Under the pieces are notes generated by a model that did no database searches, was not told where the DNA came from, and saw nothing but the letters and a program-made list of their open reading frames with translations. Below, in pieces: positions 2,873 to 14,539 of a DNA stretch of 64,000 bases. This stretch comes from Thermotoga sp. (GTDB lineage Bacteria > Thermotogota > Thermotogae > Mesoaciditogales > Mesoaciditogaceae): assembly GCA_020722015.1 (NCBI GenBank), contig DYLQ01000008.1:1-64000 (forward strand). Reading direction: 5' to 3'. The position numbers and the translations under genes are program-made. Each line of letters begins with the position of its first letter. The first letter of the stretch is position 1.

Positions 2873-4384
2873 TTAAATCAAAGATTTTTGATTTTCGGCA
2901 AATATTTTTTTGTAAAGATCTGAACCATAACTTGTCTGCAAAGGCTCTCCTTCTTTGAGCTTAAAAGGCCTGCTTCCGTCTGTACTCCTTTCGGCCCTCA
3001 GAAAAAGTGCATTATCCATTTTTTGTTTGTAAAAACCATGAGATAATTCGTACATGTGTGTTACGAAAAAGACTTTGATGTTTTTTTCGACAAGTGCCAA
3101 GACTATTTGTTTTGCTATTTCAGATCCTTCTCTTTCATTTGTCGCGGCGAACGATTCGTTGAAAAGTACCATTGAGTTGGATTGGACCAAGTTTGCGATC
3201 TCATCCATCCTTTTTAATTCCTCATCGAACTTACCGCTATCCATTTTTTTATCTTCTTCACGTTTGTAGTGCGTGAATATCCCACTTGAAATGTTTGCCG
3301 TAAATCTTTGTGCCGGTACAAAGATCCCTGCTTGCATCATTAATTGCGCAATGCCTACGCTTCTGAGAAAAGTTGACTTTCCTCCTTGATTTGCACCGGT
3401 TATAAAGACGAGATCTTTTCCATTGGCGTTGATTTCATTTCCAACAATCCTTTCTTCTTTGATGATGGCAAGGGAAATATCGTAGAGATTTTCAAAATCA
3501 TGTACCCGTTCGTTCATCGGCCTCGGCTCAGGAAAACAAATCGGTTCTCCGATTTTGACGATTCGATCGTGAAGATTAAGCACTCCAACGTAAAAGGCCA
3601 ATTCTGTGCGCATCATTTTGAAGAAACTCAAAATATGATCCGTAGACTGAGCAAGAGCGTTCGCAACGGAATTTATTGCCTTGTCCTTTATCTGTCCAAG
3701 GGCTTCGGCACCCCTTTCGTCCCTGTCACTTATCGCAAATGTGTAAGATTCTTCCTTTTTTGAAAAGACTCGATCCAAAAAGTTCCCCCTTTTTTCATCA
3801 GACTTTAAAATCAAATAATCTTTTCCCTTGTTTCCCGTACCCAAACTCACACCGATAAGCATACCATTTTTGAATTCAAGATCTCTGAGATGCTCCTCAA
3901 TAGTTTCAAAATATTCGTCGTTAAGTTCAACCTGAATCATCTTGAAAAAACGTTTGAAACCTTCGGATTCGAATTTGGAAGACTCCTCATCCGCGATCTT
4001 TTTCAATTTTTTCAAAGTGCCGATGAAAAGGTGTAAAAGGTCTATTGAACTGTGCAATATGGCATCCGGATATTTGCTGAAAAAACCAAAATACGTTTTT
4101 TTCTCCTGTCCTATTCCTTCAATGGCTATTGAGTAAAGGTTCCTTACCGTTGCTGAATTTTTCAAGCAATCTTTGATCACATCCTGACGGTAGAGAATCG
4201 TATCCACGTAATTAAGGCTTGAAAGTAAAACCTTTTTTGAAATGTCAAAGATAAACTCATCGCCATTTGACATGACGTTGAATATGGTGTTCAATTCGAG
4301 ATCCTGGACGAGATAATCCGTAAATGAAGGAAGTGAATGTTCCGAATCGAAATCGCGATTTCTGAAAAGTAAAAAAGCTTTCAT
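2873..4384 (-). CDS. MutS-like ATPase, second of a pair
   Basis: A 503-residue protein with a helical core (roughly 60-310) and a C-terminal MutS-type ABC ATPase domain: Walker A TGANQGGKST (329-338), Walker B SMVLFNES (404-411), and FVTHMYE. The Walker B aspartate is Asn (NE instead of DE), as in the upstream paralogue. The mismatch-recognition and connector domains of true MutS (800+ residues) are absent, so it is not a mismatch-repair MutS. Its ATG overlaps the stop of the upstream paralogue (ATGA), implying coupled translation and perhaps a heterodimer. It is under the riboswitch at 5920-5990. Function unknown. Confidence 0.85.
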   Translation of the reverse strand: MKAFLLFRNRDFDSEHSLPSFTDYLVQDLELNTIFNVMSNGDEFIFDISKKVLLSSLNYVDTILYRQDVIKDCLKNSATVRNLYSIAIEGIGQEKKTYFGFFSKYPDAILHSSIDLLHLFIGTLKKLKKIADEESSKFESEGFKRFFKMIQVELNDEYFETIEEHLRDLEFKNGMLIGVSLGTGNKGKDYLILKSDEKRGNFLDRVFSKKEESYTFAISDRDERGAEALGQIKDKAINSVANALAQSTDHILSFFKMMRTELAFYVGVLNLHDRIVKIGEPICFPEPRPMNERVHDFENLYDISLAIIKEERIVGNEINANGKDLVFITGANQGGKSTFLRSVGIAQLMMQAGIFVPAQRFTANISSGIFTHYKREEDKKMDSGKFDEELKRMDEIANLVQSNSMVLFNESFAATNEREGSEIAKQIVLALVEKNIKVFFVTHMYELSHGFYKQKMDNALFLRAERSTDGSRPFKLKEGEPLQTSYGSDLYKKIFAENQKSLI

Positions 4385-5904
4385 GATTTTATCCTTTCTT
4401 TTAAAGATTTGTAAGTCAAACGATACTTCTCAGCTATGGATATGGCATAAGACAATCCATCCGATGGCTTTCTCAAAACCTTGTAAATTCTTACAGATGG
4501 ATTGTTTGGATCTACGGTTCCAACCATACTTACAACTTTTTCATTCATACAGGTTATCTCGTCTATGAATGTAACCCATACGGCCAAAAGATCAAGATCG
4601 TATATAATCGCCATTACCTTTTTGCTCAAGTAAAGCGCATCTTCCAAAGTCGTTGAAGAAAACATCTCGTTCATTATGATTATACTTTTAGAGGTCGCTT
4701 TTTTCAGAATAAGGTTTATCCTGAACAGATCATCTTCGAGTTTCCCGCGGAGATTGTTTATATTTTCTTCTCTTTCAAAGTGCGTAAAGATTTCATCGAA
4801 TAAAAAAAGTTTGGCTTCATTTCCAGGTACGGGGCAACCGATGCTTGCAAGATAATGAAGTTGTCCGAAAGTTCGCGCAAATGTCGTTTTACCGCCTTGG
4901 TTTGGCCCCGTCACAGCGAAAATGCGTTCGTTACCTTTAAGATAAAAATCGTTGGTTACGACTGGCTTTTGATCGTCTGCCAATTTATCGGCAAGCGAAA
5001 GGTCGAAGGTTTTGTTGGCGTAAATCTCCTTGTCCTGTGTGATCTGTGGAATACAAAATTCAAGTCCGTTCCTTTTGAATTTGGATATGTATTCGATGTA
5101 AGAGATGTAAAATTGAATTTCTCTGTCAAAATCGGAGATCATTTCGTTCATGAAATTCGAATTATCAGTGTAATATCTGTCAAGCTTTTCAAAAATATCT
5201 GGATAAAGTAACGCAACAAAATCAAGTATTTTGGCCTCAACGTGGTTCATGTCCGGAAATTCGTTGAATGTAACTGTGTAATCTTTGACGGATCCCTGCC
5301 TGAATTTTTCAAATATTTCCTCTATTTCCTGGCCATAATCTTTTTCGGAGTGATCTCTTTTTACCTTGATCGCATTCCCTTTGACAAACAAAGTATATTT
5401 TATCTGTAGAAGTTCATTTTTTAACGTCTCGGTTTGAGCGATAAGAGACTTAAAATCGTTTGAATCGACGTAATTTTTCAAAAGCTTAAAAAAAGATGTA
5501 AAACCTCTCGATTTCAGTTCAACGGAAAGTGCTTTTTCAAGTTTTTTCACTGCATCACAATAAATTTCAACTCCGTCCAAAAACCATCTTTCTTTCTGGT
5601 ATTTGTATGACAGTTTATCCGATTGCTCAAAAGATCTTCTCACCATACGCATTTTATCTTCGAATTTCAATATGTTTTCAAACAAGTCCTCGTTTTCAAG
5701 ATCTCGCATCACTTCCTGCCTGTATTCTATCGAATCTATATCTTCAAGTTTCGTGTAGAAATATGGTTTCAAGTTGTATTCTTCCTTTTTGGATGTAACG
5801 GAATTCACAATCTGATCGATGTTAAGATCCACAAAAAAATCTGGAATCAGAGCGTTTTTCGCCTTTATTTTGTCATTTTCATTCAAGAAAAGTATGCTGA
5901 ACAT
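4381..5904 (-). CDS. MutS-like ATPase, first of a pair, fluoride-riboswitch controlled
   Basis: A 507-residue protein with a long helical region (60-290) and a C-terminal MutS-family ATPase: Walker A TGPNQGGKTT (332-341), FDEIFTHFEREE (about 369-380), and Walker B SIIIMNEMFSSTT with Asn where MutS has Asp. It lacks MutS domains I-II. The real start is ATG 5904, seven bases after AAGGAGG; the upstream in-frame ATG at 5943 lies inside the riboswitch terminator and is not a start. It is first gene of a two-gene operon. The role in fluoride stress is inferred from the riboswitch only. Confidence 0.87.
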   Translation of the reverse strand: MFSILFLNENDKIKAKNALIPDFFVDLNIDQIVNSVTSKKEEYNLKPYFYTKLEDIDSIEYRQEVMRDLENEDLFENILKFEDKMRMVRRSFEQSDKLSYKYQKERWFLDGVEIYCDAVKKLEKALSVELKSRGFTSFFKLLKNYVDSNDFKSLIAQTETLKNELLQIKYTLFVKGNAIKVKRDHSEKDYGQEIEEIFEKFRQGSVKDYTVTFNEFPDMNHVEAKILDFVALLYPDIFEKLDRYYTDNSNFMNEMISDFDREIQFYISYIEYISKFKRNGLEFCIPQITQDKEIYANKTFDLSLADKLADDQKPVVTNDFYLKGNERIFAVTGPNQGGKTTFARTFGQLHYLASIGCPVPGNEAKLFLFDEIFTHFEREENINNLRGKLEDDLFRINLILKKATSKSIIIMNEMFSSTTLEDALYLSKKVMAIIYDLDLLAVWVTFIDEITCMNEKVVSMVGTVDPNNPSVRIYKVLRKPSDGLSYAISIAEKYRLTYKSLKERIKS

Positions 5905-5919
5905 CTCAAAAACCTCCTT

Positions 5920-5990
5920 AAAAAACAAAATGGCTTCCATCAATAGAAGCCATCAGCCTTCAAGGCGATAAGGGAGCCTCATCCCGTTCC
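5920..5990 (-). ncRNA. fluoride (crcB-type) riboswitch with terminator platform
   Basis: On the minus strand the aptamer runs from about 5985 to 5943: GGGATGAGGCTCCC (stem GGG/CCC, eight-base loop ATGAGGCT), a joining TTATC, hairpin GCC-TTGAA-GGC, then TGATGGCTTCTAT. This follows the Thermotoga petrophila fluoride aptamer layout (GGCGAUGGUGUUCGCC, small hairpin, GAUGRC-type tail). Loop bases GAGGC can pair with GCTTC to form the pseudoknot. GCTTC also lies in the terminator stem ATGGCTTC/GAAGCCAT (5930-5953) followed by TTTGTTTTTT, so ligand binding should prevent termination and switch the MutS-like genes on. No ligand test is possible here. Confidence 0.8.
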
Positions 5991-5991
5991 T

Positions 5992-5997
5992 ATTATA
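5992..5997 (-). promoter_or_regulatory. -10 box of the mutS-like operon
   Basis: TATAAT on the minus strand, ending about seven bases before the first aptamer base. No good -35 is visible (TTTTTC at 6015-6020, 17-base spacer). Confidence 0.6.
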
Positions 5998-6058: not shown

Positions 6059-6062
6059 ATTG

Positions 6063-6132
6063 GCGGTGGCAGTGGAGTTTGCCCAAACAGCTTAACAGCC
6101 GATGACTCCTACCTATTTTCAGGTGGGAGGTG
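6063..6132 (+). ncRNA. fluoride (crcB-type) riboswitch with RBS-sequestering platform
   Basis: Aptamer at about 6068-6113: stem GGCA/TGCC closing loop GTGGAGTT, linker CAAAC, hairpin GCT-TAAC-AGC, then CGATGACTCCTACC. Layout and tail match the fluoride aptamer, with loop GGAGT able to pair perfectly with ACTCC as the pseudoknot. The same CTCCTACCT can instead pair with AGGTGGGAG (6121-6129), burying the ribosome binding site GGGAGG of the TTG start at 6137. Ligand binding should therefore free the site and switch translation on. There is no T-run, so control is likely translational, unlike the divergent copy. Confidence 0.85.
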
Positions 6133-6136
6133 TATT

Positions 6137-7075
6137 TTGTTAGCGTTAAGTGTAATCCAGCTTGTTTATGTACTTGCGTTGGCTCCTCTTATTGCAGGGA
6201 TAATATCTACAATCGAAGAGCGTATTGAATCCAAAAGAGGGCCGAGTATCTTTCAGCCCTACTATGATCTTCTAAAACTTTTCCGAAAGGAAAATGTTAT
6301 TCCCGCAAAATCTTCGCCAATCTTCAGGATAGGTCCTTACGTTACTTTCAGCCTTTACATGCTTTTGACTCTTGTCCTTCCGATAATAACGGCATTCCCT
6401 TTGCAATTTGGACCTGTTGTGGATTTCATAGGAGGGGGGCTTACATTCGGTGCAGCGGCAACTTTTAAAAAGCTCATGGCTTTGGACAGCAGAAGTAATT
6501 ACGCACACCTTGGCACATCAAGATCGGCCAGCATCGGGGCACTATCTGAGCCTATAACCGTTTTGATCTTCATAATGTTGGGTGTCATTTCCAAAACAAA
6601 CAATCCTTACATTATAAACAACGTACTTCAAACTTCCATGACATGGTATCTCTCACTTGTCCATTGGTTCGTCGCAGCGGCATTTTTCATGGTTTTACTT
6701 GTCGAAACTGGGAAACTACCCATAGAATCTCATTCGACTGCTGAGCTCGGTGCGATAGATCAATCGATGGAGATCGAATATTCCGGATCCGATCTTGCAT
6801 TTTTCAAGTGGGGCGGATATGCAAAACAATTCCTTTTGATGAGCGTGTTTTTAAACGTTTACACGGTGCCTTTCTGGGTACCCATGAAAATGAACTTCGA
6901 TTCCGTATTCATCTACATGGGAATTCAACTTTTAAAGTTGGTGGGTCTTGCCATAGTCTTTGCTTTCTTCGAAGAAAGTGTCTCCAAATTCAGACTTCTC
7001 AAAAACTTTGATTACATTGCCGTAGCCTTTTCGATGGCGTTTTTAAGTTTTCTTGTCTTCAGCATCTCGGGGTGA
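6137..7075 (+). CDS. FHL/complex-I-like membrane subunit, HyfC/NuoH type
   Basis: Membrane anchor subunit homologous to HyfC/HycD and complex I NuoH, about 312 residues with eight hydrophobic segments. Family motifs are ESKRGPSIFQPYYDLLKLFRKE (about residues 28-49) and VETGKLPIESHSTAE...MEIEYSGSDLAFF. The start is TTG 6137 with GGGAGG six bases upstream; the longer frame from GTG 6050 runs through the riboswitch and is rejected. In the family this subunit connects the antiporter-like subunits to the hydrophilic arm. It is first gene of a seven-gene operon. Confidence 0.87.
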   Translation: MLALSVIQLVYVLALAPLIAGIISTIEERIESKRGPSIFQPYYDLLKLFRKENVIPAKSSPIFRIGPYVTFSLYMLLTLVLPIITAFPLQFGPVVDFIGGGLTFGAAATFKKLMALDSRSNYAHLGTSRSASIGALSEPITVLIFIMLGVISKTNNPYIINNVLQTSMTWYLSLVHWFVAAAFFMVLLVETGKLPIESHSTAELGAIDQSMEIEYSGSDLAFFKWGGYAKQFLLMSVFLNVYTVPFWVPMKMNFDSVFIYMGIQLLKLVGLAIVFAFFEESVSKFRLLKNFDYIAVAFSMAFLSFLVFSISG

Positions 7076-7079
7076 TTAT

Positions 7080-7715
7080 ATGAATGATTTTTTCATGTTA
7101 ATAGGTTTTTCGGAAATATTGCTTGTGATTTTCATGCAATGGGAAGTGTATGTTGCAAAGATAATTAAGACCTTTTCGATAAGCTCATATGCTGTATCGG
7201 TTTTCTTGCTTTATCTGAGTTTTGTCCAGCATTCGTATCTTGTCCTTATTTTAGCCATATTGACGGCCGTGATAAGAGGATTTTTTATACCTAATTTCAT
7301 TCTGAAAAGGCTTGCAAGAGATCCGTGGAGAGAAAGAGAATCAAAGCCCATTATGGGAACGGCATCTTCGATAATAATCTCTCTTGTGATAGCGATCTTC
7401 GCTTATGTGCTTTACGAGGCAACGATGTTGAATTTCATAGGAGTATTGTCGGGAGCCATTCCGATTGCACTTGTCTTTCAAGGCGCTTTTCTTGTGATCT
7501 CGAGGAGAAACGCCTTTATCCAACTTGTAGGATATATGGTTATGGAAAATGCGGCCTTTTTGTTCACGGGATATCTCTTTCCCGATCTTCCTTTCAGCGT
7601 AGAAGCTGGAACGGTGCTTGATCTTATAGGAGTCGTTATGATTTCGGGAATAATAATGAGGATGAGAGAAAATTCTCCGAAAAAATCAGACGATATCGAT
7701 GAATTGAGGGGATAA
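7080..7715 (+). CDS. FHL-like membrane subunit, HyfE type
   Basis: About 211 residues, strongly hydrophobic with about seven membrane segments, matching HyfE/HycC-type small subunits (NuoK-like part plus extension), including the segment FIPNFILKRLARDPWRERESKPIMGTAS. The start is ATG 7080 behind GGGGTGAT. It is placed between the HyfC-like and HyfF-like genes exactly as in hyf operons. Likely part of the proton-path portion of the membrane arm (family knowledge). Confidence 0.8.
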   Translation: MNDFFMLIGFSEILLVIFMQWEVYVAKIIKTFSISSYAVSVFLLYLSFVQHSYLVLILAILTAVIRGFFIPNFILKRLARDPWRERESKPIMGTASSIIISLVIAIFAYVLYEATMLNFIGVLSGAIPIALVFQGAFLVISRRNAFIQLVGYMVMENAAFLFTGYLFPDLPFSVEAGTVLDLIGVVMISGIIMRMRENSPKKSDDIDELRG

Positions 7716-7717
7716 AT

Positions 7718-9076
7718 ATGGATTTAGTTTACATCTTACCGATGGCAGCAAGTTTGATAGGCGCTTTGCTGTGTCTTGTGAGAATTGAAAAATTTGAAGA
7801 GATAGTTTCAATAATTGTTTCGGTTTGCACGTCAATTTTTGCCGTTTTAATTCTTTTTTCGCCAAATGTCTCAAATTATTTTTTGTTTTTAGATGGCATT
7901 TCAAAGATCATGATTTTGACCATTTCCATCGTTTATGTTATGACCGTTATTTTTTCGACAACTTTTTTTAAGTACATAGATGAACCGCTCTTTCAAAAGA
8001 GATTTTACTATCTGCTTCTCAATCTCTTTGCGTTTTCGATGTTTTTTTCTGTATCGGTAAACAATTTCGGACTTGTGTGGGTTGGGATAGAGGCGACAAC
8101 GGTTACAAGTGCGCTTTTGGTGGCAACGGAAAATGACGAATCATCGATAGAGGCAACGTGGAGGTACATAATAATAGTATCAAGCGGCCTTGTCATTTCT
8201 TTCATAGCCAACATATTGATATATTCCGCAACCGGTACACTTGATATATCCAAATTGTTATCGATGAACTCGTTTTCTGCGTTACTCCCCCTCGGTTCGA
8301 TGATGGCCTTGGTGGGATACGGTACAAAAGCCGGCATTTTTCCCATGCACACATGGCTTCCGGATGTTCACGGCAAAGCCCCGGCTCCGGTAAGCGCGAT
8401 CTTTTCCGGAGTACTGCTCCCTGTAGCACTTTACGCGATGATCAGAGTTATTCAATTTACACCGATAGAGTATGTTAAGACCTTTGCCCTTATATTGGGA
8501 TTTTTAACCGTGATAATCGCTGCAAGCCTTATGGCAGTTCAAACGAATTACAAGAGGCTGTTTGCCTATTCGACAATGGAAAATATGGGGATGGCTTTAA
8601 TCGGAATATCTTTAGGTGGTTATGCGCTCTTAGGTGTTATCATCTTGATACTTTCACATGCGTTTGCGAAATCTTCGACTTTCTTTTTAAGCGGCAATTT
8701 ATTATCAAGGTATAAAACGTTGAAGATCGACGAAGTCAAAGGAGTGGCCGGGCGCATGCCGATCACCGCTTACACTCTTCTTTTCAGTTCAATGGCAATA
8801 ACCGGGATGCCTCCTTTTGGAACTTTTTTCGGAGAGATCATGATAATTTTCGTTTTGCTTTCTGCTGTACACATAGGGTGGGTGTTGTTGCTTATGGCTT
8901 TTTTGGCGCTTGCTTTCATTTCGATGAATTTCAAGGTGGGCAAAATGCTTTTTTCGGATTCGGAAGGAGATAACATGGAGAGAAAGAGAGTCGGTACCAT
9001 CATCCCCGTGATTGATACGATACTGTCTTTGGCCATTGTTTTTTTCATTCCGCTTATAAGTAAGGTGATAAAATGA
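7718..9076 (+). CDS. FHL-like antiporter subunit, HyfF/NuoN type
   Basis: A 452-residue Mrp/NuoN-family subunit with about 13 membrane segments. Ion-translocation residues look kept: acidic residue in VWVGIEATTVTSALLVATEN, and lysine/histidine in GYGTKAGIFPMHTWLPDVHGKAPAPVSAIFSG. Starts at ATG 7718, two bases after the previous stop, and overlaps the next gene by four bases. In relatives this subunit moves protons (or Na+) driven by redox chemistry in the hydrophilic arm, which here seems inactive. Confidence 0.88.
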   Translation: MDLVYILPMAASLIGALLCLVRIEKFEEIVSIIVSVCTSIFAVLILFSPNVSNYFLFLDGISKIMILTISIVYVMTVIFSTTFFKYIDEPLFQKRFYYLLLNLFAFSMFFSVSVNNFGLVWVGIEATTVTSALLVATENDESSIEATWRYIIIVSSGLVISFIANILIYSATGTLDISKLLSMNSFSALLPLGSMMALVGYGTKAGIFPMHTWLPDVHGKAPAPVSAIFSGVLLPVALYAMIRVIQFTPIEYVKTFALILGFLTVIIAASLMAVQTNYKRLFAYSTMENMGMALIGISLGGYALLGVIILILSHAFAKSSTFFLSGNLLSRYKTLKIDEVKGVAGRMPITAYTLLFSSMAITGMPPFGTFFGEIMIIFVLLSAVHIGWVLLLMAFLALAFISMNFKVGKMLFSDSEGDNMERKRVGTIIPVIDTILSLAIVFFIPLISKVIK

Positions 9077-10287
9077 AGATATTGCTCGGGGTTTTTCGTA
9101 AAGATATAAATTATTATGTAGTTCAGGACAATGGGATCGTTTTAACGGAAACAGATCCTGCCGATACGTACCTTCCCAATTATGCTTCAGTCAAATTGCG
9201 CGATATGATGATAAATTCGGATCAATCAGTCAAAGACGGTGACGGTGTCTTCGATTTCAGATATGGTCCTGTCACGAGCGGAGTCGGAGAAGCCGGCATT
9301 TATCATCTTTACACTTACGGAGAAAGAATCCTTTCGGTTAGCATCGATCTGTCTTATAAACACAGAAATATACAAAATCGTATGGTAGGTCTCGATCTCA
9401 AGTCAGGTTTAAAGATGGCGGAAAGCATCTGCGGTAATTTCGCTTTTTCTCATTCTTTGGCATTTTCGAAAGCCGTTGAGTCTGCAATTGGTGTTAACGT
9501 AGATTCAAAAAGTCAAAGGCTCAGAATAATTGCCCTTGAGCTCGAAAGAATCTACAATCATCTTTACGTTATTTATCAACTTGCACAAACCGCCTCTCAA
9601 AAAGTTTTGACATCGCATTTGAGCTATCTTTTTGAAGAAAGTTTAAGGTTAAACAAAAAAATCAGTGGATCGAGATATCTCAAAAATTTCAACGATATCG
9701 GCGGAATTAAAAATTTTGACGAAAAAACTTTGCAAGATTTAAAGACTGATGTTCAAAAAATAGTCAATGAATTCAAAGATCTTTACGAATGGGCACTTGA
9801 AAGCGGGAATTTTTTGGATAGACTTTATTCAACGGCAATTTTAAAATCGTCGGATGCGATGAGTTTAGGGATAACCGGACCGACATTGAGAGCCTCAGGC
9901 ATAAGGGAAGACTTAAGATACAACGATCCGGCGTACGAAAATTTGAACATTCCCATAAAAGAAGAAGGAGATGCGCTTTCAAGAATGGAAGTAAGAGCTG
10001 AAGAGATCTTTGAAAGTCAAAGGATAATCTTTAATCAGATAGAAAATTTCGATGCGGAGATTAACGCAGAAACAACCGAAAAAGGTTTTGGATATTGCGA
10101 ATCGCCAAGCGGTACGATGGTATATAAAATTGATTTGGAAAGTCAAAACATTTCAGATGTGTATATCGCAACTCCGTCTCTTTTTGCTTTCAAAGGAATT
10201 GCAAACTCGCTGGTAGGCAACATCTTTACGGACTTTCAGTTTGCAGTTGAATCTTTCGGAGTAAATTTTGCGGATGCCGCACTTTGA
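9073..10287 (+). CDS. degenerate hydrogenase-3/4-like large subunit (HycE/NuoD type) without Ni ligands
   Basis: A 404-residue homologue of HycE/HyfG/NuoD. Recognisable blocks are GPVTSGVGEAGIYHLYTYGE (65-84), HRNIQ, AESICGNFAFSHSLAFSKAVE (116-136), ALELERIYNHLYVIYQLA and GYCESPSGTM. Group 4 NiFe hydrogenases have CGxC at the third block; here it is C120-G-N-F123. The C-terminal DPCxxC is absent: the end reads FAVESFGVNFADAAL. Three of four Ni-binding cysteines are therefore missing. The N-terminal NuoC-like domain of HycE is also lacking. The protein probably keeps a structural or coupling role (inference). Confidence 0.82.
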   Translation: MKILLGVFRKDINYYVVQDNGIVLTETDPADTYLPNYASVKLRDMMINSDQSVKDGDGVFDFRYGPVTSGVGEAGIYHLYTYGERILSVSIDLSYKHRNIQNRMVGLDLKSGLKMAESICGNFAFSHSLAFSKAVESAIGVNVDSKSQRLRIIALELERIYNHLYVIYQLAQTASQKVLTSHLSYLFEESLRLNKKISGSRYLKNFNDIGGIKNFDEKTLQDLKTDVQKIVNEFKDLYEWALESGNFLDRLYSTAILKSSDAMSLGITGPTLRASGIREDLRYNDPAYENLNIPIKEEGDALSRMEVRAEEIFESQRIIFNQIENFDAEINAETTEKGFGYCESPSGTMVYKIDLESQNISDVYIATPSLFAFKGIANSLVGNIFTDFQFAVESFGVNFADAAL

Positions 10288-10297
10288 GGTGATAAGA

Positions 10298-10735
10298 ATG
10301 AAATGGTGGCCCACAAAAGGAATGAAAAGATTTTTGACGGAAATGGACAATTATCCATCAAAGGCGACGGTAAAATCGATGAATATTTTCAAAAGATCGA
10401 TACACATCTACACGATAGATGTCGGCAATTCGAATTTGCTCAATTTTGAAATAAAAGCACTTCAAAGCGCTCAGTATAACACTCACAGGTTTGGAATATA
10501 TTTTGCCGATTCGCCGAGGCATGCCGATCTTCTTATCGTACTTGGAAGCCCTACAAAAAATATGATTGAGCCTTTGATGAACACCATAGAACAAATGCCC
10601 AAGCCATTTGGAATTTTAATTGTCGAAGAAAACGATGAGATGGATCTGGAGCTGCCGAATGTCGTTGGACGGCTGAAAAATCCAGAGCCTTCCGATATTT
10701 TAGGCGCAATTTTGAAGATCATGGAAAGGAATTGA
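10298..10735 (+). CDS. degenerate hydrogenase-like small subunit (HycG/NuoB type) without cysteines
   Basis: A 145-residue homologue of HycG/HyfI/NuoB. The framework is clear: SIHIYTIDVGNSNLLNFEIKAL aligns with the SIHIYHVDCGSCNGCDIE-type motif, and RFGIYFADSPRHADLLIVLGSPTKNM with the following conserved block. Every cysteine that would bind the proximal 4Fe-4S cluster is replaced, and the whole protein contains no cysteine. It cannot carry an Fe-S cluster. Start ATG 10298 has GAGGTGATAAGA upstream; the longer frame from 10268 overlaps the previous gene and lacks a site. Confidence 0.82.
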   Translation: MKWWPTKGMKRFLTEMDNYPSKATVKSMNIFKRSIHIYTIDVGNSNLLNFEIKALQSAQYNTHRFGIYFADSPRHADLLIVLGSPTKNMIEPLMNTIEQMPKPFGILIVEENDEMDLELPNVVGRLKNPEPSDILGAILKIMERN

Positions 10736-12624
10736 TGATCATGTGCTTTGCATACACGGCACTTATTCTTTATTTTTTCGGAGTAGTTTTTTCTTTTAAA
10801 AGATGGATTTCCTACACGTTAGCGTCGATTGGCGCTGCCTTTGCGCTGGTAGGCGGTATAGTCGGAACTTTTTATCCTTTCACGCTCGGAAATATGGAGC
10901 TTTTGCCAAAGATATACATGTCGCTCGGAGTCAACCACACATCGGGAATTTTCATGACCATAGCCGCAATATCATGGATAGCGATATCCATATATTCGAT
11001 CGATTACGGTAAATTTTACTCAAAAGATATGGGACTGTGGTTAAATCTTTCATTTTTGGGAATGATGATCATTTTGATGGCCGGAGACGGTCTTACCTTT
11101 ATAACGGGATGGGAGATAATGACAGTTTCATCTTATCTTCTCATTCTCAAACACAAAGGTGCTTTCAAAGAAGCCTTTGAATTCTTGGCATTCGGAGAGT
11201 TATCGACTGTCAGTTTGATAATAGCCTTTGCATCTTTATTTTTAAAGAACGGAAATTTTTCATTCACACAAAACTCTGGTACTGTGATATTTCTGATCAT
11301 GTCAACATTTGCCTTCGCTGTCAAAATGGGTATATTTCCGTTTCACACATGGCTTATAGGTGCGCATGCAAAAGCGCCATCAAACGTTTCGGCACTTTTA
11401 AGTGCTCCTCTTACTTTGATGGGAGTTTACGGTATTTTCATGGCACTTTCCATAATGCCGAATTTGCATCTGTACAATTTTCAGTGGTGGGGAATACTCG
11501 CCATCATTTTCGGTGCCATGTCCGCTTTTTGGGGCGCTCTTCACGCCGTTGCGACAAAGCAATTGAAAACTCTGCCTGCTTATTCGACGATTGAGAATAA
11601 CGGAATGATTTTAGCCGCAATAGGAATATCCGTGATGGCAAGTGCGGATCCTAATCTCGCGATCATGTCTGAATTCGCTTTGATAACCGCAATTATGCTT
11701 GCCATATCACATACGTTTTCGAAATCTTTACTTTTCCTTTCCGTAGGCCATGTAAAGGAAGCTTTGAATGAAGACAACATAGACGATCTGCGTGGCGCAT
11801 GGAGCGCCGTCGGAAAGATCCCCGCGTTGGGAATATTGATCTCAGGCCTTTCTTTCAGCGCATTTCCGCCGCTTGCAGGCTTTGTAGGTGAATGGATGCT
11901 GTTGGAATCTTTCTTCCAATCTTACAAGTTTTCTGATATTATCACTCGCCTTGTGGCAACTTTTGCAGGCATATTTGTCGCTTTGGCAATAGGCATGGCG
12001 GCATTTTCAATGGTAAAGCTTGCCGGATACACAGCCTTGGGATACGATCACGGAAAAAAAGCCAAACGTATGCCATCTACCTTGATGAAGGTATCAGAGC
12101 TTTTTCTCGCAATTCTTGTCTTCGGATTTGGAATTTTTGCCACTTTTGTTTTAAGATACTTTGGGTATTCGCAATTCACATCCGGACTGTTTGGCGTACC
12201 GTCTCCGTTTTTGATGATTTCATCTGTACCGATCTTCGGAGTGGTTTCTCCGATGTTCTTTGCAATTGTAACTTCTGTTCTGTTTCTTTTTCCACTGGCT
12301 TTTTATCTTACAAAAAATAAGGTAAGGCGCGTTAATTCCTGGAACGGAGGATTGCCGATTGAAGAAGGCGAGTATTTTACGGCTCAAGCTTATTCGTCGA
12401 TAATAGAGATCGTATTCAAGAAAATATACATCACAAAAGAAAAACGTTCGGCCGATGAGGCTCACATAGAATTTGTCGATGTGATAAGTGTATTTTACGA
12501 TGCCCTAAAAGGCACAATTTTGAAAATCGAAAATGTGCTTTCGAATACACTGATGAATGGAAACATCAACGCGTACGTGGCATACATATTTGCCGTATTG
12601 GTTTTGATCTTCATATTGAGGTGA
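10735..12624 (+). CDS. FHL-like antiporter subunit, HyfB/NuoL type
   Basis: About 629 residues, about 16 membrane segments, member of the NuoL/HyfB/MrpA family. Conserved ion-path residues are visible in TGWEIMTVSSYLLILKHKG (Glu) and AVKMGIFPFHTWLIGAHAKAPSNVSALLSAPLTLMGVYG (Lys/His). The C-terminal part (about 500-630) has NSWNGGLPIEEGEYFTAQAYSSIIEIVFK, typical of HyfB/HycC. Starts at ATG 10735 overlapping the previous stop. With the HyfF-like protein it gives the complex two antiporter-type channels. Confidence 0.88.
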   Translation: MIMCFAYTALILYFFGVVFSFKRWISYTLASIGAAFALVGGIVGTFYPFTLGNMELLPKIYMSLGVNHTSGIFMTIAAISWIAISIYSIDYGKFYSKDMGLWLNLSFLGMMIILMAGDGLTFITGWEIMTVSSYLLILKHKGAFKEAFEFLAFGELSTVSLIIAFASLFLKNGNFSFTQNSGTVIFLIMSTFAFAVKMGIFPFHTWLIGAHAKAPSNVSALLSAPLTLMGVYGIFMALSIMPNLHLYNFQWWGILAIIFGAMSAFWGALHAVATKQLKTLPAYSTIENNGMILAAIGISVMASADPNLAIMSEFALITAIMLAISHTFSKSLLFLSVGHVKEALNEDNIDDLRGAWSAVGKIPALGILISGLSFSAFPPLAGFVGEWMLLESFFQSYKFSDIITRLVATFAGIFVALAIGMAAFSMVKLAGYTALGYDHGKKAKRMPSTLMKVSELFLAILVFGFGIFATFVLRYFGYSQFTSGLFGVPSPFLMISSVPIFGVVSPMFFAIVTSVLFLFPLAFYLTKNKVRRVNSWNGGLPIEEGEYFTAQAYSSIIEIVFKKIYITKEKRSADEAHIEFVDVISVFYDALKGTILKIENVLSNTLMNGNINAYVAYIFAVLVLIFILR

Positions 12625-12629
12625 GATAA

Positions 12630-13265
12630 ATGAAAAAATCAGTTGAATCGGGATATTTACTCGGTAAAATAGATGAACTTCTCGACAGGGTGGGTTGTCC
12701 AATATGCGAACTTACATTTGAAAGTGTCGATGACAACATAGACACACTTTTTTATGAAAATGTCAACGATCCGTCGGAGAGGGAAAAATTTTCAGCCGGT
12801 CCGGGCTTTTGTCCCAAGCACTTAAAAATGGTTGAAGAACATTTGAAAATGCACCCGGAACTCGGCATACTTGGGGTATCGGTGCTTTACGGCACGCTTG
12901 ATGACGATTTGAAACGTGCGTTGAACGATGAATCTGTGAACTTTGGTGTAAGATGTCAATTATGCGATGATGAAGCGGATGCCGAAAAAAGATATTCAGA
13001 TCTTTTCATTCAGTACATTTCAAATGAAGACAGGATTAAAAAATACGAGAACTCGATATCAACTGTGTGTTTGAAACATACGCGCGATTTACTCAAGAAC
13101 TCGAATGTGAACTCTAATTTTAAGGGTATTCAGGAGATCAAAATAGAAAGAACCTTGAATTCATTGAAGGAATTCATAAGAAAAAATGACTACAGATATT
13201 CAAAAGAACCGGTTACGATCATGGAAGGTGAAGCATGGAAAGTGATATCCAAATTTTTGTATTGA
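12630..13265 (+). CDS. DUF6062 family protein, probable metal-binding
   Basis: A 211-residue soluble protein I recognise as DUF6062-like. It has two similar halves, each with a CxxC and a CxKH motif: VGCPICEL and GFCPKHLKM in the first, RCQLCDDE and TVCLKHTRDL in the second. This spacing suggests two zinc or metal sites. It lies five bases after the HyfB-like gene with its own GGTGAGAT site, so it belongs to the riboswitch-controlled operon. Function unknown. Confidence 0.75.
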   Translation: MKKSVESGYLLGKIDELLDRVGCPICELTFESVDDNIDTLFYENVNDPSEREKFSAGPGFCPKHLKMVEEHLKMHPELGILGVSVLYGTLDDDLKRALNDESVNFGVRCQLCDDEADAEKRYSDLFIQYISNEDRIKKYENSISTVCLKHTRDLLKNSNVNSNFKGIQEIKIERTLNSLKEFIRKNDYRYSKEPVTIMEGEAWKVISKFLY

Positions 13266-13290: not shown

Positions 13291-13322
13291 TCATTCTCGA
13301 TAAATTCAATTTGGAGGTAATC

Positions 13323-13706
13323 ATGTTAGATAAAGATTTGAAGGAAAAGATTGATGAAGTTTCTTCTTTTGTAAACGACAGCGAGATATATGACTATTCG
13401 AGTCCCGAAATTGTTTGGGATGATGAAATCGGCTATTCTATTGAGGAAGAAGATACTGTACTCGAAGATCTCGTCTGGGGAGGCATGACGGAATCAGAGG
13501 CAAAAACTATTCTAAAAGAGTACAAAGAGCGTCTTCAAAAAGCTTCTGGCATTGTCAAACAACTCATAAAGGATGGAACCATAACTTCCGAAGATGAAAT
13601 ATGGGACTACGTTGACGAAGAAGGAGACGAAGATTATTACGAAGATGAAGATGAAGAAGATGAAGAAGAGGAAGAAGAAGACGATGACGATGACGAAGAA
13701 AGATGA
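13323..13706 (+). CDS. small acidic protein with Asp/Glu tail
   Basis: A 127-residue protein of unknown function starting at ATG 13323, five bases after GGAGG. The first 95 residues are mixed helical. The last ~30 are almost only Asp and Glu, encoded by a GAA/GAT/GAC triplet run. RNA-polymerase delta-like proteins share the acidic tail, but I see no clear similarity in the N-terminal part. The 3' 70 bases overlap the convergent EamA gene, whose antisense frame reads the triplet run as serine. It has its own strong promoter. Confidence 0.72.
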   Translation: MLDKDLKEKIDEVSSFVNDSEIYDYSSPEIVWDDEIGYSIEEEDTVLEDLVWGGMTESEAKTILKEYKERLQKASGIVKQLIKDGTITSEDEIWDYVDEEGDEDYYEDEDEEDEEEEEEDDDDDEER

Positions 13707-14539
13707 AATAATTGAGCCCATATTGCGGCAAAAGTTATCATGACAAAACCGATGATCTCTGTTTTTGAGAAAGTTGATTTAAGCATTATAACGGAAAATA
13801 CGGTAGCCATGACAGGTTCTCCAGCGTAAATGAATGAAGATGAAACAGTTCCTATTTTCTTTTGATATTTTGCCTGTATGATGATGCCTATGATACTTGC
13901 CACAATTGCCATGTAAATGATAAAAGCAACGTCCGGAAGATTCCAACTGTCATGATAACTTGAGAAAGCGTAAAATGGGATATTTGCAACTGTTATGATC
14001 AAAAATTGGTAGAAGGTAAGTGTAATCTCCTTACCTTCATGTTTTTTTGTTAAAATTGTCATCAAAAGTACCTGAAACGCGAAAGAGATGGCACATAAAA
14101 AAGTTAAAAAGTCTCCGAAATTCATATCAAATTTACTTCCCGAAAGTTCTATCATGTATATACCTACTGAAGCGATTATCAAAGCGAGAATTGTATGAAA
14201 ACTGACTTTGGTCTTTTCGAATATAAATGACAAGATAACTGCAAACACAACGTACATGGACGTTATAAAACTACTTTTTGCAGGTGTTGTGTAAACAAGT
14301 CCCCATGTTTGAAAAACAAAACCGGCTCCCATAGATATACCGATCATAAGACCGGCTTTCCATATACTGAAAAAATCACGTTTTATGGATGGGAAAAATA
14401 TGATCAATATTACGACGTCAGCGATTAGGAATCTGACAAGATTAAGGGTGAAAGGAGAAATACTTTCAAGCATGATCTTTTCTATTGGAAAGGTTGTTCC
14501 CCAAACGATAACAAGTAAGGAAAGTAGAAATACCGCCAT
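13637..14539 (-). CDS. EamA/DMT family transporter with poly-serine tail
   Basis: Ten-segment drug/metabolite transporter of the EamA family (two repeats: VIVWGTTFPIEKIMLESISPFTLNLVRF and the second half from about residue 145), 300 residues from ATG 14539. The C-terminus after ...AAIWAQLFHL is a run of 20 serines, produced by reading through the antisense of the neighbouring gene's Asp/Glu tract. Upstream of ATG 14539 there is no good ribosome site; GGAGG at 14572-14576 sits eight bases before an in-frame ATA (14563), which would add MEKTQSKF. An AUA start is therefore possible. Substrate unknown. Confidence 0.85.
   Translation of the reverse strand: MAVFLLSLLVIVWGTTFPIEKIMLESISPFTLNLVRFLIADVVILIIFFPSIKRDFFSIWKAGLMIGISMGAGFVFQTWGLVYTTPAKSSFITSMYVVFAVILSFIFEKTKVSFHTILALIIASVGIYMIELSGSKFDMNFGDFLTFLCAISFAFQVLLMTILTKKHEGKEITLTFYQFLIITVANIPFYAFSSYHDSWNLPDVAFIIYMAIVASIIGIIIQAKYQKKIGTVSSSFIYAGEPVMATVFSVIMLKSTFSKTEIIGFVMITFAAIWAQLFHLSSSSSSSSSSSSSSSSSSSS

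Follow-up and report, generated by a model that had tools for sequence, protein, structure and literature searches.

Introduction

The crcB RNA was later shown to be a fluoride riboswitch. In the report that described its regulon, this RNA adjoined genes named mutS as well as formate hydrogen lyase genes, and the presence of mutS was read as a sign of DNA repair (Weinberg 2010, PMC2864571). We found no tested reason for the association between the crcB RNA and mutS in the open-licence literature, and in searches of that literature for work joining the fluoride riboswitch with MutS, or aminomutase reactivase with MutS, only the 2010 report was relevant.

In Escherichia coli MutS, the DE motif (residues 693 to 696) holds the water around Mg, and substitutions in it abolish ATPase activity (reviewed in PMC3848065). 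KamC (NF052383, annotated in NCBIfam as lysine 5,6-aminomutase reactivase) is a protein of about 500 residues with a MutS-type ATPase and no mismatch domains. On the side of fluoride resistance, the operon of Enterobacter cloacae FRM (ppaC uspA eno gpmA crcB orf5249) has been studied experimentally and gives resistance to high fluoride (PMC5533749).

Here, we analysed a stretch of 64,000 nucleotides from a Thermotoga sp. assembly (GCA_020722015.1, contig DYLQ01000008.1; the window), in which the same RNA precedes the same two kinds of genes as in the crcB regulon of Weinberg 2010 (PMC2864571). What was there named mutS is here a distinct two-gene family, A-B, with an altered ATP site and a place in fluoride islands. 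Within the open-licence literature, it appears to be new that this "mutS" forms a family of its own, consisting of paired proteins with changed catalytic residues.

Results

Gene pair without mismatch-reading domains. The features of the locus are collected in Table 1. The first-pass annotation of the window had described two adjacent paralogues of about 505 residues with a MutS-type Walker A and without mismatch-reading domains, and this description stands. MutS_V is the sole Pfam domain above the cut-off (81 bits in B and 75 bits in A), MutS_I, MutS_II, MutS_IV and Smr gave no Pfam match in either protein of the window, and both sequences terminate after domain V. Among 44 A members, none reached any of these four models, and one reached MutS_III. 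Profile searches gave matches to MSH3/MutS, and in Foldseek, the best matches of the AF2 models were MutS, MSH and MutS2 for A (pLDDT 87) and MutS and MSH for B (pLDDT 85). With MutS_V, a Walker A motif and the lever-ATPase fold, A and B belong to the MutS-fold ABC ATPase superfamily. The PADLOC matches were weak (about 15 bits), and a role in anti-phage defence was rejected.

Table 1. Positions of the features discussed, numbered along the window
Feature	Position	Strand	Remarks
Gene B	2873-4384	-	503 aa, MutS III/V-type ATPase, paralogue of A
Switch His443 of B	3056-3058	-	H 89/90 in B
Walker B of B (FNE), Asn409-Glu410	3155-3160	-	N 89/91
Signature of B, Gly384-Lys385	3230-3235	-	G 88/88, K 87/88
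Walker A of B, GANQGGKS, residues 330-337	3374-3397	-	alignment
ATGA overlap, A stop/B start	4381-4384	-	4 nt
Gene A	4381-5904	-	507 aa, MutS III/V-type ATPase, ATG 5904, SD AAGGAGG
Phe446 of A at the switch-His position	4567-4569	-	F 95/95 in A
Walker B of A (MNE), Asn412-Glu413	4666-4671	-	N 95/95 (count biased, one scan pattern contained this Asn)
Signature of A, Gly387-Lys388 for MutS Ser-Thr	4741-4746	-	G 82/95, K 91/95
Walker A of A, GPNQGGKT, residues 333-340	4885-4908	-	invariant in alignment A6
Intrinsic terminator over 3' part/core of aptamer, A-B leader	5929-5954	-	11-pair stem then TTGTTTTTTA; fold z -2.8
Fluoride riboswitch aptamer directly before A	5937-5994	-	RF01734 25.5 bits, E 4e-4 for the 3.7 kb searched
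Fluoride riboswitch of divergent membrane-complex operon	6059-6118	+	RF01734 40.3 bits
Terminator overlapping plus-strand aptamer	6106-6129	+	terminator search
Hyf/complex-I-like operon (NuoH-, HyfE-, HyfF-, NuoD-, NuoB-, HyfB-like)	6137-12624	+	profile matches
DUF6062 gene, end of divergent operon	12630-13265	+	also present in other fluoride islands

Altered ATP sites. The residue replaced in the Walker B of A and B is the Mg-coordinating Asp, and the catalytic Glu next to it is retained; MutS1, MutS2 and KamC relatives have DE. The Asn proved to be fixed in the family alignment, as the first-pass annotation had asked to see, and the two B rows without it have a D in one case (L093) and are out of frame in the other (L167). 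The count for A is biased, as the scan relied on two peptide patterns and one included its Asn; the count for B is unbiased, and the relatives that came from the protein search carry no such bias. The earlier reading of the active site was correct as regards NE for DE but overlooked both the change of the signature from Ser-Thr to Gly-Lys and the loss of the switch His in A. In MutS1, the trans signature is Ser in 14/14 and Thr in 14/14 rows. Judged from the alignments, in both composite sites an acidic Mg ligand is thus gone and a conserved Lys has been acquired, and the two sites differ from each other at the switch position, where every A has Phe and nearly every B has His. The natural Asn412 and Asn409 match by position the Walker B substitution of E. 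coli MutS D693N (PDB 3k0s), which, unlike them, is a laboratory mutant of a mismatch-repair protein. Slowed hydrolysis by the Asn in A-B is plausible, by analogy with E. coli MutS, in which substitutions in this motif are reported to abolish ATPase activity (PMC3848065), while any effect on catalysis of the natural combination of Asn with Gly-Lys is one that we infer from the sequences.

Placement among MutS-type proteins. In a tree, all A proteins formed one clade and all B proteins another (100% bootstrap each), and the two clades were sisters. MutS1 and KamC lay in further clades, and MutS2, represented by one row, grouped with KamC in a tree whose long branches were flagged by the program. 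Domains, Walker B and tree rule out that A or B is an ordinary MutS1 or MutS2: MutS1 has MutS_I, MutS_II, MutS_IV and a DE Walker B, none of which is found in A-B, and MutS2 shares a similar lever and ATPase core but has Smr and the DE motif, both missing in A-B, which form a clade separate from the one MutS2 row. KamC resembles A-B in size, ATPase type and absence of mismatch domains, and it is the best, subthreshold, NCBIfam match of B. The scores of the pair against NF052383 were, however, 79.9 and 54.9 bits at a cut-off of 300, the similarity of B to KamC is limited to the ATPase domain, and KamC has a DE Walker B, a Ser signature and no fluoride RNA at its loci, in all three of which A-B differ. 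The source genome also encodes a separate KamC-like protein with a DE Walker B at C19. With scores far below the cut-off and a separate DE paralogue in the genome, the reading of A-B as KamC itself was rejected.

Riboswitches and terminators. A fluoride riboswitch lies on each strand of the intergenic region between A and the divergent operon. The minus-strand site before A missed the RF01734 gathering score of 34, whereas in the class, the orthologous sites that precede A mostly scored 36 to 51 bits, i.e., above it. Our own model R1, built from a set of 26 sites, gave the minus-strand site 42.9 bits, and since R1 was trained on this site, the independent evidence is the Rfam match and the same position in relatives. 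In the 26 aligned sites, the pseudoknot pairs 16-20/55-59 are paired in 100%, with double changes at three pairs. The pseudoknot is GGAGU/ACUCC in most sites, GAGGC/GCCUC in several before A and GAGGC/GCUUC in the minus-strand site. The Rfam consensus structure of RF01734, as printed, has no pseudoknot, which may be the reason for the low score of the GAGGC subtype. The minus-strand site has both the conserved pseudoknot and an expression platform, and covariation, control loci and recurring position rule out a chance origin; on these comparative grounds, we regard it as a genuine riboswitch. Read from the sequence, an aptamer with an overlapping terminator is at both sites the arrangement of a transcriptional on-switch. 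A third fluoride riboswitch of the genome, at C46 (L041, positions 3726-3782, plus strand), lies upstream of a three-gene operon whose first gene encodes a MoxR-type AAA ATPase and whose second and third proteins had no Pfam match at E 1e-4.

Conservation of the pair and of its riboswitch. The pair occurs in 17 of the 101 genomes of the class search (the source and 100 relatives), invariably in the order A then B, and 14 of these 17 carriers (13 besides the window) have a fluoride riboswitch directly before A. In the others, the riboswitch heads an enolase gene, behind which A is broken and B intact (G083), the contig ends within A (G009), or no fluoride riboswitch was found before A by the RF01734 and R1 searches (G097). 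Gene A is interrupted with B open at L043 8273-9835, L055 7806-9462 and L056 7124-8532; the breaks in A are an in-frame TAG in G006, a split frame in G060 and several stops in G083.

A wider scan with one genome per species gave at least 566 relatives, and 80 loci were kept among the matches listed. By their record titles, the kept loci span Bacillota, Chloroflexota, Acidobacteriota, Pseudomonadota, Desulfobacterales, Spirochaetota, Atribacterota, Nitrospirota, Bacteroidota, Actinomycetota and Planctomycetota as well as two archaeal bins. B directly follows A in 79/80 of them, the exception being a contig end, and the overlap of start and stop codons, from which equal synthesis had been proposed, is of 4 nt in 74/79 as in the window, in support of a cotranslated pair. 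Of the 76 kept loci that include upstream sequence, 52 have a fluoride riboswitch immediately before A and 6 others have one at the head of the operon (58/76). In the remaining 18, none was found at the promoter or operon head, although seven carry a site at another place in the locus. The Rfam model at gathering score confirms the riboswitch in 15/22 sampled kept loci, and no fluoride riboswitch match at E ≤ 0.01 was found at 36 loci of MutS1, MutS2 and KamC searched as controls. The proposed fluoride link of the pair was thereby extended from the window to the family, and the contrary outcome, homologues with DE and free of such a link, is the opposite of what was found, with the Asn fixed and the link conserved. 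As far as sequences go, the link between A-B and fluoride could hardly be made stronger by comparative genomics.

Fluoride islands and plasmids. Neighbouring genes were clustered, and the clusters were sampled against Pfam. In the 80 kept loci, the recurrent neighbours were enolase (18), MFS transporter (16), Fluc (12) and Na/H exchanger (10), together with Usp, CLC, DUF190-CBS, NuoH-type complexes, dynamin-like GTPases and DUF6062; the last two share one mixed cluster in 25 loci and were therefore not counted separately. Pyrophosphatase genes were also among the neighbours. Dynamin-like GTPases, DUF6062 and DUF190-CBS recur in fluoride islands (L134, L195, L156 and others), often near a fluoride riboswitch. 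A Burkholderia plasmid has A-B and their own riboswitch next to a dynamin-like gene, two genes for enolase and two for pyrophosphatase. The island of the Enterobacter plasmid pY546 (L193) begins antiporter-Usp-A-B-P-type ATPase, with the P-type ATPase gene and gene B split, and continues crcB-phosphoglycerate mutase-eno-Usp-DHHA2-domain protein. The E. cloacae FRM operon (PMC5533749) corresponds in gene set to one half of this island; the antiporter-Usp-MutS half is missing from the published FRM gene list, whereas pY546 has both halves. Since FRM resists fluoride with a published list that holds no mutS-like gene, resistance does not depend on the pair in every case. Close copies of the pair occur on 34 plasmid records, 20 of them predicted to be conjugative, with Klebsiella and Enterobacter among the hosts, and the pair was found in 1 of 5,426 E. 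coli genomes. Neither these islands, including the plasmids, nor the 2010 association between crcB RNA and mutS had entered the first-pass annotation.

Divergent operon and the rest of the genome. That A-B act with the divergent membrane complex did not hold as a general rule: the complex adjoins the pair in G001, G004, G007 and a minority of the other phyla, and enolase, Fluc, antiporter and dynamin-like genes adjoin it as often or oftener. The predicted start of the divergent operon is TTG 6137, preceded by the SD sequence GGGAGG. This fluoride-switched operon looks redox-dead, and a hydrogenase role is unlikely since Cys is absent from the NuoB-like subunit and limited to two unpaired residues in the NuoD-like subunit. 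Downstream of it, the acidic repeat tail of an ORF at 13311-13706 (plus strand) overlaps the poly-Ser tail of a transporter-like ORF at 13637-14539 (minus strand), and the repeat may lengthen both opposite ORFs artificially. No Fluc (CrcB) exporter was found in the 10 genomes of the source's family (the source and 9 others), all of which have fluoride riboswitches despite this. The CLC of the window, the only one in the genome, was rejected as a fluoride exporter since it has GREGP, compared to GREGT in 4/5 CLCs beside the pair elsewhere. The genome has one enolase only, located outside its fluoride operons.

Discussion

The altered ATP site, the lack of mismatch-reading parts, the fluoride riboswitch and the resistance islands together indicate that A-B are probably ATPases of fluoride defence and not mismatch-repair proteins. 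A heterodimer of A and B is likely, given the 4-nt overlap that recurs across the kept loci and the two sister clades. The reading that we favour, tentatively and at close to an even balance of belief and doubt, is that A-B form a fluoride-induced heterodimeric protein-remodelling or reactivase ATPase that acts on a fluoride-inhibited client. Fluoride entering the cell would bind the nascent leader RNA and prevent the terminator, and A-B would then be transcribed. Made together, the two proteins would assemble into a dimer of the MutS core type, with lever helices and an ABC-type ATPase, without a mismatch or DNA-clamp domain and with composite ATP sites that have Asn for Asp and a trans Gly-Lys. 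Such a dimer would be a remodelling ATPase of the KamC reactivase kind, gripping the fluoride-inhibited protein and using ATP to reset it; candidate clients are enolase, pyrophosphatase or another Mg-phosphate enzyme.

This reactivase reading draws on the parallel with KamC, on shared islands with enzymes that fluoride inhibits and on the lack of domains that read DNA. Against it, KamC keeps DE, resembles B in the ATPase domain only and sits in a separate clade; enolase adjoins the pair in under a quarter of loci and lies outside the fluoride operons of this genome; 18 loci lack a riboswitch at the promoter or operon head; the published operon of the resistant E. cloacae FRM holds no mutS-like gene (PMC5533749); and the apex of B is mildly positive.

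The first alternative is that A-B act on DNA, as a fluoride-induced DNA clamp or damage-response ATPase. The MutS fold and the profile matches to MSH3/MutS fit this idea, as does the DNA-damaging stress proposed by Weinberg 2010 (PMC2864571), and the mildly positive charge of the modelled B apex (+5) makes nucleic-acid binding possible. However, the apex of A is approximately neutral and both proteins are acidic overall, there is no mismatch, connector or clamp domain, and the pair is found beside enolase, ion transport, Usp and dynamin-like genes, with no repair-gene cluster among the recurrent annotated neighbours. We consider an action on DNA unlikely.

Somewhat more doubtful still is the proposal that A-B are not motors but hydrolysis-poor nucleotide switches or scaffolds for membrane partners such as a dynamin-like GTPase, an antiporter or the divergent complex. 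The Asn at both Walker B motifs, the Gly-Lys signature, the Phe for the switch His in A and the frequent dynamin-like neighbours are what such proteins might show, and substitutions in the DE motif (693 to 696) of E. coli MutS do abolish its ATPase (PMC3848065). Set against this are the retained catalytic Glu and Walker A residues, the switch His kept in B and the absence of the divergent complex from most loci.

The same residues could be given a bolder meaning, in which Asn and the trans Lys make the ATP site less dependent on Mg and let it avoid trapping by ADP-magnesium-fluoride; the pair would then be a fluoride-proofed motor that keeps running where other ATPases stall and frees poisoned enzymes of fluoride-metal-phosphate. 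We hold this to be improbable. An action on stalled ribosomes like that of MutS2, when fluoride complexes trap translational GTPases, is the least probable reading. The best Foldseek matches of A do include ribosome-bound Bacillus subtilis MutS2 (7qv3) and the Thermus thermophilus MutS2 core, and an ABC-type ATPase gene does sit between the riboswitch and A in two Burkholderiaceae loci, but Pfam finds no Smr, the pair forms a clade apart from the one MutS2 row in the tree, and no recurrent translation genes were recognised nearby.

In conclusion, the "mutS" of the crcB regulon is, by comparative analysis, a dedicated two-protein family with coordinated active-site changes that is spread over many phyla and over plasmids of clinical enterobacteria, on which it is currently annotated as mismatch-repair MutS or as hypothetical. 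An old annotation puzzle thereby becomes a defined experiment. If the idea of reactivation is true, the repair of poisoned enzymes would join export as a route by which cells survive fluoride.
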